DNA from: Aliarcobacter sp.
GTDB taxonomy: Bacteria > Campylobacterota > Campylobacteria > Campylobacterales > Arcobacteraceae
Length of the DNA stretch: 64,000 nucleotides
NCBI GenBank assembly: GCA_028690445.1
Contig: JAQVBE010000007.1
Coordinates: 1 to 64,000 of the forward strand
Reading direction: 5' to 3'
In this document: piece after piece, positions 5,506-55,764 of the stretch
Position numbering within the stretch: the first letter of the stretch is position 1
How the letters are laid out: every line of letters starts with the position of its first letter
Position numbers and translations under genes: made by a program
The notes under the pieces: generated by a model
Databases searched by the model: none
What the model saw: only the letters and a program-made list of their open reading frames with translations
Told to the model about the DNA's origin: nothing

Positions 5506-6089
5506 TATTCACCTTTTATATAAAGATAATTTCTATCTTTTCTATTTACTATTTTATAATCATTAATTTTTGCTATTTCAATCTCAGATTCAAGCATAGA
5601 ACCTTTATAAAACAGATATGAACTATTTTCTTTTTTAATATTTTTTGTAATATCTAAAAGCAAAGAAGTATTTGTAACTGCTCTTGAAGTAATTAAGTCA
5701 ACTTGTAAATCTTTAACTTCTTCGACTCTACTACAAATAACTGTTAAATTTTCTAATTTTAAACTAGCTTTTACAAAATTTAAAAATGAAACTCTTTTGA
5801 TTCGAGGCTCTATTAAGTAAGATTTCACTTCTTTTTGTGCCATTGCTAAAATAAGACCAGGATAACCAGCACCTGTCCCAATATCTGCAAAACTATTATA
5901 TTTATTTATAAAATTTAAAGGAAATATAGAATCCAAAATATTTTCTTCAATATCACTTCGTAAAAGTCTTCCACTAAGATTATGAACTTTCCCCCATTGT
6001 TGAAGTAATTTTATGAAAATTTCACAATCTTCATAAAATTTATCATCAAAAAAAAGGTTATTTTCTTCTAATAATTGTTTTAAAAGCAT
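5505..6089 (-). CDS. rsmG: 16S rRNA (guanine(527)-N7)-methyltransferase
   Basis: Methylates N7 of G527 in the 530 loop of 16S rRNA; loss gives low-level streptomycin resistance in other bacteria. The 194-residue protein has the family start with a helical N-terminus, VHNLSGRLLRSDIEENILDSI, and the S-adenosylmethionine loop FADIGTGAGYPGLILAMAQ, followed by LIEPRIKRVSFLNFV and the DLITSRAV motif. Length is slightly shorter than the E. coli enzyme but normal for Campylobacterota. It overlaps both neighbours by TAATG (ribA upstream, PP0621 protein downstream), so all three form one translation-coupled unit. Confidence 0.95.
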   Translation of the reverse strand: MLLKQLLEENNLFFDDKFYEDCEIFIKLLQQWGKVHNLSGRLLRSDIEENILDSIFPLNFINKYNSFADIGTGAGYPGLILAMAQKEVKSYLIEPRIKRVSFLNFVKASLKLENLTVICSRVEEVKDLQVDLITSRAVTNTSLLLDITKNIKKENSSYLFYKGSMLESEIEIAKINDYKIVNRKDRNYLYIKGE

Positions 6090-15243: not shown

Positions 15244-16194
15244 CTAAACTTTCTTAAAACTATTTATATATTCATTCATCAAGAAAAAATCTACTTTTTC
15301 ATTAATTTTTATATCTAAATCCATTAAATATAAATTTGTAATATTAAACTCTTTTAATTTCACAAAATCTTTTCCTGTTGTAACGAAAGAATAATCTTTA
15401 TACTCATTTTGGATTTTAAAAATATCATCTTTTGTAAAAGTATAATGATCAGGAAATGAAATCATTTTTATATCTTTTGGCAAAAATTCCAATAATCTTT
15501 TTGGTTTTGAAATAGCTGTTATCAAAATAGTTTTAACTGGAAGTTCACAAACTTTTCCATCTTTTTTTATACTAATAACTCTTTCAAAATCTGTTCCTTC
15601 CAAAAGTTCAATATTAGCTTGAGAATAAAATCCTTTTGGTTCTCTATAACCTCCACTTGGTAAACAAAAAATATTCGTAGGTTCATCTTTTGGTCGTAAT
15701 AAAATATTAAATTTAGCAATTTGATATTTAGAAAATCCATCATCCAAAAATATGATTTTACATCCTAGTTCTTTTGCCTTTAAAATAGCTTTTATTCTAT
15801 TTTCGCTCACAATTATCGTAGCATTGCTTAAAGAGTTAGCTAAAAGCATAGCTTCGTCTCCACTTGTTTTTACATCTACTAAAATCTTACCATTTAAAGA
15901 AACAACATATAAACCTTTTGAAACTCTGCCATAACCTCGAAGAATTACACAAGCATTTTCATATTTTGAAGCTAGTTTTATTGTAATTGGAGTTTTTCCA
16001 CTTCCACCAACAATTATATTTCCAACTGAAATAATAGGTATTCCAAACTCTATTGGTTTTGCCATCGCTCTTTTAGTCAAAATAATTAACATATAAATAA
16101 AAGTCAAAGGAAGAAGCAAAAAAGAGATTATTTTTTGAAAAGTATTTGGAAAGAAGAGATAATCTTCAATCCATAAATATAATTTTTGTTTCAA
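15244..16194 (-). CDS. lpxK: Tetraacyldisaccharide 4'-kinase
   Basis: Phosphorylates the 4' position of the lipid A disaccharide precursor at the inner face of the cytoplasmic membrane. The 316-residue protein has an N-terminal membrane-associated helix (about 22-42), the P-loop GNIIVGGSGKTP, then VILRGYGR, SGDEAMLLA and FLDDGFSKYQI motifs, and a C-terminal ITAISKPKRL / SFPDHYTFT segment, all typical of LpxK. It sits six bases after the DegT-type aminotransferase gene, pointing to joint expression. Confidence 0.95.
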   Translation of the reverse strand: MKQKLYLWIEDYLFFPNTFQKIISFLLLPLTFIYMLIILTKRAMAKPIEFGIPIISVGNIIVGGSGKTPITIKLASKYENACVILRGYGRVSKGLYVVSLNGKILVDVKTSGDEAMLLANSLSNATIIVSENRIKAILKAKELGCKIIFLDDGFSKYQIAKFNILLRPKDEPTNIFCLPSGGYREPKGFYSQANIELLEGTDFERVISIKKDGKVCELPVKTILITAISKPKRLLEFLPKDIKMISFPDHYTFTKDDIFKIQNEYKDYSFVTTGKDFVKLKEFNITNLYLMDLDIKINEKVDFFLMNEYINSFKKV

Positions 16195-54476: not shown

Positions 54477-54580
54477 GAAGTAGATTATAGCTAATTTAAA
54501 TTAAAATCGTCTATATTTTAATAGGTAGTTTTGGTAACAAAATATTTGTTAGGATGGTTTATTTGTAAGTATTTGCGTTG

Positions 54581-54602
54581 TTAGTAGGTAAACTAATAAG
54601 CC
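54581..54602. repeat. Displaced copy of the rnpB 3' end (attachment-site-like)
   Basis: TTAGTAGGTAAACTAATAAG plus CC matches 55432-55453 at the true rnpB 3' end in 21 of 22 positions, in the same orientation. Weaker similarity extends to the left (TTGTAAGTATTTG here, TTGTAGGTGTTTG there). The single change falls in the P1 strand, so this copy would pair less well with the rnpB 5' end. It is the left boundary of the probable element remnant. Confidence 0.75.
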
Positions 54603-54794
54603 TTACCTAGCAATTTAAAAATCCTATAATATAAGAATTATAGAATATAAAATAAAGTTATAACACGGTTTTTAACTGTCAAACAAATCGAAAGGAAGCA
54701 TAAATAAAGACTTAGAAAAATTAATTTTAAGCTTACAGTTTAGATCAACCGTCCAAGATTCAAGAAGTACTAATTTGTATTATTTATTATCTTT
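54603..54794. other. Non-coding part of the element remnant
   Basis: A+T-rich DNA between the displaced att copy and the transposase fragment. It contains TAACACGGTT (54661-54670), the exact inverse of AACCGTGTTA at 55301-55310 on the other side. No gene is recognisable. Confidence 0.5.
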
Positions 54795-55166
54795 AAACAA
54801 TGGGTTCATTATAAAATTAAAGAGTTTGAACCACAAATAAAAATTCATAATCCAAGAGCAGTAAACTTAATTTGTGATGCAACCTTTTATGGTAAAAGAA
54901 AAGATAAACTTAGTACTTTAGTTTTTATGGATAGTATTACTCATGAGATATTAATTTGGAAACATATACAAGATAAAACAAGATTTACAAAAGCACTAGA
55001 TATTTTGTATATAAAATATAAAGATTTCCTAAATGAAATTACTTTTCATCCTGATAGTGGAAAATATTCTTTCACTCACAAAAAATTAGTTTCTGCATAC
55101 ACAAGTATTAAAAATAATTTGCCATATCTTTTAAATTTAATTGAGGTTCATTACCTAAAGTTTTAG
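54795..55166 (+). pseudogene. Internally deleted IS transposase fragment (IS256-like, variant zinc-binding type)
   Basis: One frame, without a proper start, reads QWVHYKIKEFEPQIK, then NLICDATFYGKRKDKL and LVFMDSITHEILIWKHIQ, followed abruptly by the family's C-terminal part (KYSFTHKKLVSAYTSIKNN, LPYLL). The first catalytic aspartate (ICDATF) is present, but the middle of the protein with the remaining catalytic residues is missing, and so is the N-terminal zinc finger. After about 55140 the frame runs into DNA that on the other strand encodes an integrase start. This indicates insertion into the integrase gene followed by deletion. Confidence 0.7.
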
Positions 55167-55269
55167 TAGTATCTTTACCATCTTTATAAATCCTAGTAAC
55201 ATATACTTTTTTGCCATTTTTATCTAGTCTATAATATAATCCATCATGTTTTGTTTTTTCAAGTACCAC
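55141..55269 (-). pseudogene. Tyrosine integrase, N-terminal fragment
   Basis: Starting at a GTG (55269) preceded by AAAAGG, the frame encodes VVLEKTKHDGLYYRLDKNGK and then KVYVTRIYKDGKDTTKTLG. This is the arm-type DNA-binding domain (GVYYRxxxNGxxxYYxxYK) at the beginning of phage/island tyrosine recombinases. The core and catalytic domains are absent; the sequence passes into the transposase fragment. It points away from the rnpB 3' end, 160 bases from it, as expected for an integrase beside its att site. Confidence 0.75.
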
Positions 55270-55431
55270 AGTAAACCTTTTATTTACCGTGTAAAAAATG
55301 AACCGTGTTAGAACTTTAACACGACTTTTAACACGCTTCTAGTTGTAAATATATGTAATTTAACGTAAATTGTAGTGTGTTAAGTTTTAACAAAAGCTTA
55401 TTTTTGTAGGTGTTTGTAATGTAGTGTATTA

Positions 55432-55453
55432 TTAGTAGGTAAACCAATAAGCC
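55432..55453. repeat. rnpB 3'-end copy of the attachment-site-like repeat
   Basis: TTAGTAGGTAAACCAATAAG plus CC, the functional partner of the displaced copy at 54581-54602. It includes the 3' strand of the rnpB P1 helix, so an element that integrates here must restore the RNA end, which this copy does. Confidence 0.75.
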
Positions 55454-55757
55454 GCGTTTTGTTTTTAAGACAATAATTTATCTAGCTACTAAATTACTTT
55501 AGTAGTCTTGCGAAGACCAAAAATGTGAAGTAAATACCTAGTCTTCTTGCTGCAGGTTGGGTTTACAAAGCACTTAAGATTACTCAAAAGTCTGGTAGGC
55601 TCTTACCCCACCGTTTCACCATCACCGAAAAAATCGGCTGTCTATTCTCTGTTGCACTATCCCTTAGGTTACCCCAGCCATTATTTAAATGGAACCATAC
55701 TTCACAGCAGCCCGGACTTTCCTCTTGATTTTACTCAAGCTATTGTCTGGTTTACCT
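55435..55757 (-). ncRNA. rnpB: RNase P RNA (bacterial type A)
   Basis: Catalytic RNA that cuts the 5' leader from pre-tRNAs. Reading leftward it begins at about 55757 with GGTAAACC, which pairs with GGTTTACC at the 3' end (55445-55438) to form P1. The conserved P4/J3-4 block GAGGAAAGTCCGGGC lies at 55724-55710; GGTGAAACGGTGGGGTAAGA in the specificity domain near 55620 and the terminal GGCTTATTGG are also present. The length of about 320 bases is slightly short but normal for Campylobacterota. A TATAAT sits seven bases upstream of the likely start. Confidence 0.93.
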
Positions 55758-55764
55758 GATGTGC

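Follow-up and report, generated by a model that had tools for sequence, protein, structure and literature searches.

The rnpB locus and the repeat of its 3′ end

The 64,000-nucleotide stretch of Aliarcobacter sp. DNA analysed here, referred to as the window, carries the RNase P RNA gene, rnpB, on the minus strand at 55432-55758 (RF00010, 242.5 bits, full model length). The 3′ end of this gene is the predicted attachment site of an integrative element, the putative remnant of which is described below. As the original prediction had stated, a second copy of the final 22 nt of rnpB (55432-55453) is present in direct orientation at 54581-54602, with one mismatch. No third copy is present in the 64-kb window, and none of 100 dinucleotide shuffles contained a copy. 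The 22-nt repeat forms the conserved portion of an imperfect direct repeat of 41 nt (78% identical, spacing 851), which defines an rnpB-side attachment site at 55413-55453 and a distal attachment site at 54562-54602, both on the minus strand.

The conserved core corresponds to the 3′ strand of the rnpB helix P1. The rnpB-side core pairs perfectly with the 5′ strand of P1, whereas the mismatch in the displaced copy breaks one P1 pair. The target gene is thus still intact, as is evident from the full-length RF00010 match and the fully paired P1. A mismatch confined to the displaced copy fits a target that was restored by the element, leaving the displaced copy free to drift. No tRNA or tmRNA genes were found in the window; the predicted target is not a gene of these classes, the usual ones for such elements, but rnpB.

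An N-terminal integrase fragment next to rnpB and a transposase fragment, which the original prediction had placed between the copies, were both recovered by profile matches. On the rnpB side, the scar retains the promoter of the integrase gene, four arm-type sites and some 45 N-terminal codons of the enzyme, a tyrosine integrase. These codons (55133-55269, minus strand) encode the arm-binding domain (PF13356, E 4e-5). The reading frame containing them, 55108-55269 on the minus strand, matches Arm-DNA-bind_3 with E 4e-5, just under the Pfam cut-off, and its last residues (about 55108-55132) are part of the inserted transposase fragment. The integrase in the window is limited to its N-terminal codons and lacks the catalytic domain. 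Over the junction, the fragment shares 95% nucleotide identity with the closest relative, G023, and 84% with G029, a genome of the same genus. BLAST against the relatives aligned window positions 55117-55758 with the rnpB-integrase junction of G023 at 95% identity.

The middle of the scar is occupied by a degenerate fragment of an insertion-sequence transposase gene (54798-55137, plus strand, 340 bp). It contains a 113-codon open frame matching the IS256 Zn-binding variant model with E 1e-14, below the curated cut-off, and is 95-96% identical to a partial copy elsewhere in the same genome (G000:C21:235255-235589). The distal end of the element, at 54603-54797, was not part of the original prediction, nor were the arm-type sites at both ends. 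Positions 54637-54798 are 92% identical to G023 contig C99, beside the gene for an S4-domain protein, and the distal end runs into the last codons of the response-regulator gene that comes next in G023. Window positions 54540-54676 also align with the distal attachment region of an intact element in G029 (70%, 144 columns, E 5e-12). The chromosomal flank upstream of the S4-domain gene follows at 54477-54552. It is kept in relatives that have no element here, and its part at 54505-54552 was matched in the S4 loci of 30 genomes.

Predicted arm-type integrase sites were located with the motif TTAACACGG / CCGTGTTAA, allowing up to one mismatch. Four of them lie at 55287-55336 on the minus strand, at +118, +130, +143 and +159 from the rnpB-side core. 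A predicted distal site at 54653-54670, 87 nt from the distal end, is inverted relative to 55301-55318. The same signal was found by a second tool as an 18-nt inverted repeat (54653-54670 and 55301-55318, 94%). With arm sites at both of its ends, the scar appears to keep both ends of an attP-like site. The rnpB-side arm sites also score as a terminator-like hairpin at 55301-55326, which is the single such match here (shuffle mean 0.2).

Related elements and the proposed origin of the scar

rnpB was located in 98 of the 104 genomes of the family, and its downstream flanks were screened in 88 stretches plus further ones. Related integrases were looked for at the rnpB 3′ end, as the original prediction had proposed, and were found there in the three relatives G029, G023 and G035. 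In G029, an intact element of 15.2 kb occupies the site, with the core at 304 and again at 15492. rnpB is followed there by genes for the integrase, a small HTH protein, a gpA-type replication protein, a pIV-type secretin and a Zot/pI ATPase. The replication protein, secretin and ATPase are markers of filamentous prophages; coat proteins were not identified in the element. G035, which belongs to another genus, carries an intact tailed prophage of 35.1 kb at rnpB, bounded by repeats of 38 nt at 307 and 35379 that differ at four positions. Its proteins, as read from the sequence, include replication, helicase-like, large-terminase-like, portal-like and tail proteins. The first gene of this prophage encodes an integrase with arm-binding, central and catalytic domains. 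The integrases beside rnpB in G029 and G035 are whole (PF00589) and 73% identical to each other. In G023, the integrase at rnpB is a pseudogene.

The arrangement of the rnpB-side arm sites recurs in G035 and G023. The rnpB-side sites of the G035 prophage have offsets identical to those in the scar (+118, +130, +143 and +159), and on the other side two sites lie 89 and 101 nt in from the distal end. Across the whole prophage the motif occurs seven times, six of them at the ends. The offsets in G023 are one nucleotide less than in the scar, and G029 shows a single arm site by the same motif.

Most relatives have a single copy of the repeat and no integrase at rnpB, in line with the empty sites that the original prediction had called for. 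One of these is G004, in which a gene termed X directly follows rnpB and its terminator. In G025, gene X is preceded by an integrase-side arm and a disrupted Mrr-like gene resembling that of the G029 element, which represent an independent scar. A second copy of the repeat was seen in the screened flanks only together with element ends (the window, G029, G035, G050 and, 5.7 kb from rnpB, G001), and the repeat without any element in distant relatives, the pattern that would have spoken against an element, was not encountered there. The distal core was not found within the stretches examined for G043, G089, G054 and G025. A scan of genome contigs matched the G023 contig and one distant sequence.

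Two side observations concern the history of these sites. In G029, the region beyond the distal core (L035, 15514-15820) contains a sequence like the integrase-side arm, a short broken frame whose start resembles that of the integrase, and a transposase remnant similar to the one in the window. It is perhaps an older scar in tandem. An older tandem element was also considered beyond the distal core of the window, where the resemblance is largely explained by the length of the attachment repeat, about 40 nt. In G001:C1 (L044), the rnpB 3′ end at 307 has two P1 mismatches, and the 22-nt copy at 5983 would pair fully; this arrangement perhaps goes back to an earlier exchange of the 3′ end.

We propose that the stretch is very likely the remnant of an integrative element that recombined with the rnpB 3′ end by means of its tyrosine integrase. 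The element was probably a prophage. The integrase would have recombined the attachment site of the element with the rnpB 3′ end, its N-terminal domain binding the arm-type sites at both ends and its C-terminal domain exchanging strands at the core, as is expected from the family. The element would have brought a copy of the rnpB 3′ end, and because of this copy rnpB would have been whole after the integration. The old 3′ end would have moved to the far side and then drifted. The interior may have been lost later, leaving the N-terminal integrase codons, the attachment sites and the arm sites of both ends around the transposase fragment. Reduced to these remnants, the element is unable to move by itself. 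The repeats, the layout of the arm sites, the intact elements at this site in relatives, the independent scar and the empty site are seen in the sequences, while the recombination itself, the course of the decay and a possible part played by the insertion sequence are what we infer.

Alternative explanations and chromosomal rearrangement

Several points weigh against the reading proposed above. On the assembled contigs of the relatives, the trpD-S4 region, which abuts the distal site here, is never adjacent to rnpB, so the two ends of the scar need not stem from one integration. The distal end in G023 sits on another contig and has no core. The recombination is deduced from the integrase family, nothing left in the scar points to the kind of element, and filamentous content is absent from the window. 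The scar may alternatively be a fusion of two related element ends, the integrase side at rnpB and the distal side at S4, brought together by rearrangement or deletion, perhaps through insertion-sequence copies. We consider such a fusion possible, although rather unlikely. It would agree with the distance between rnpB and S4, which amounts to tens of kb in relatives with both on one contig, with the genes that follow rnpB in G004, which are found on contig C8 in this genome, and with the location of the G023 halves on separate contigs (C78 and C99), the distal half being followed by the response-regulator gene. However, the two G023 contigs may each carry half of a single element that the assembly broke apart, and the attachment repeats of the scar are correctly oriented, with arm sites inverted as in one attP.

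An element at rnpB in the window stands under decay and fusion alike, since the integrase side alone shows it. The original prediction that the element used rnpB in the way islands use tRNA genes and then decayed is supported, and the intact elements in relatives bear out the use of the site. Simple decay alone does not account for the locus: the location of trpD-S4 elsewhere in relatives and of the G004 genes on contig C8 indicates that rearrangement contributed. Among relatives, the gene upstream of S4 varies widely (argG in several; S4 loci L165-L193), and the gene after rnpB also varies. Both regions are rearrangement points in this genus.

It is extremely improbable that the 22-nt copy arose by chance or by local duplication of a short piece of the rnpB end, with no element involved. 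The stretch is short and AT-rich, which would favour a chance match, but the shuffles gave none, and the integrase remnant, the arm sites and the whole elements found at this position in relatives would have no explanation. A chance repeat is ruled out by the shuffles and the intact elements at rnpB. It is also conceivable that the remnant was retained because the arm-site hairpin is a putative terminator of rnpB, the native one having been lost on entry of the element. The genomes G004, G022 and G001, which have no element, show a terminator-like hairpin right after rnpB, and the hairpin at 55301-55326 is the only match of this kind here. Since this hairpin is built from arm-type sites, which intact elements require in any case, we regard retention as a terminator as improbable.

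rnpB as a predicted attachment site across Arcobacteraceae

A second group of integrases (class B) was found tail-to-tail with rnpB, in the opposite orientation to the type shared by the window, G029, G023 and G035 (class A). Class B integrases or their remnants lie at rnpB in nine genomes: they are whole or nearly whole in G041, G043, G050, G066, G076 and G088 and fragmentary in G040, G055 (very short) and G089. Arm-DNA-bind_2 was detected in two of the three tested. In the integrase tree, the two rnpB-using groups are far apart, separated by a fully supported branch. Beyond the family, relatives of class B are often located next to tRNA or tmRNA genes. An integrase or a remnant at rnpB is present in 13 genomes from 8 of the 20 genera, G025 not counted.

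In G050, several rnpB 3′ ends are arranged in tandem. The region G050:C1:4000-23857 (L228, reverse complement) contains one rnpB gene and four 3′ ends, at 318, 8692, 9615 and 11297, the last three of which had no match in 200 shuffles. The genes between these ends encode an Eco47II-type restriction-modification pair, an AAA ATPase, a HepT/nucleotidyltransferase pair and a Fic protein.

Class B matches that reach 40% or more over the greater part of the query were obtained in seven genomes, in six of them at rnpB. The exception is G034, in which contig C38 (L227) was seen to carry a filamentous-phage-like element with Zot-, secretin- and Rep-like genes and a class B integrase. The integrase is 60% identical to the rnpB-site enzyme of G066. 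The element sits at the 3′ end of a protein gene, and no rnpB-like core is present there. A change of target within class B is possible, and membership in the clade therefore does not fully fix the target.

Judging from the sequences, the occurrence of integrases of two clades at rnpB in many relatives makes rnpB a recurrent predicted attachment site in Arcobacteraceae. We regard the rnpB 3′ end, with good confidence, as a standing integration hot spot across the family, used by two tyrosine-integrase clades, one of them related to enzymes at tRNA and tmRNA genes, and by filamentous and tailed prophages, with restriction or toxin-antitoxin cargo that can be stacked in tandem. As a product of decay the scar itself is unremarkable, and the interest lies in the repeated use of rnpB by two integrase clades.

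Among RNA genes, those for tRNA and tmRNA are the textbook targets of integrases, and integrative elements at RNA genes are well known. The elements at rnpB resemble the islands and prophages of the Islander and TIGER sets (PMC4383910, PMC12424338) in that the integrase gene adjoins the target, the target is restored, its 3′ end is repeated at the far end and tandem arrays occur at one site. They differ in the target, which here is the RNase P RNA gene. The site classes announced for these sets are tRNA/tmRNA, protein-coding and intergenic, so that integrations at rnpB would not be conspicuous among them. In the literature searched, in which subscription journals were mostly outside reach, no paper was found that reports integration at rnpB; the matches for rnpB that were opened dealt with typing, annotation or promoters.

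The G029 element shares the Zot/pI ATPase, the pIV-type secretin and the gpA-type replication protein with filamentous prophages (inoviruses). Many filamentous phages, such as CTX-phi, use the host XerCD at dif, whereas the G029 element has its own tyrosine integrase at rnpB. The G035 prophage is similar to temperate tailed phages with a lambda-type integrase in its three-domain enzyme and in its arm sites on both sides of the core. It differs from them in the target and the core sequence, and its integrase is about 25% identical to the best-ranked matches among phage records. Searches of viral contigs and phage records with the integrases or the core returned distant relatives or nothing.

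With rnpB, the known docking sites of mobile DNA would come to include a further essential RNA gene. The presence of two integrase clades and unrelated prophage types at rnpB suggests that a replaceable end of a conserved structured RNA matters, rather than the tRNA itself. Each integration is predicted to swap one strand of helix P1 of the RNase P RNA and to part the gene from its native terminator. Through the outer relatives of class B that lie at tRNA and tmRNA genes, the change of target can be traced. The family has food-borne members, and the rnpB 3′ end is a defined position at which its prophages and defence cargo can be sought. Two assemblies contain two copies of rnpB, G021 (C8 and C11) and G041 (C1 and C12), with a contamination of 4% in both; the doubled gene perhaps reflects mixed strains or a real duplication.
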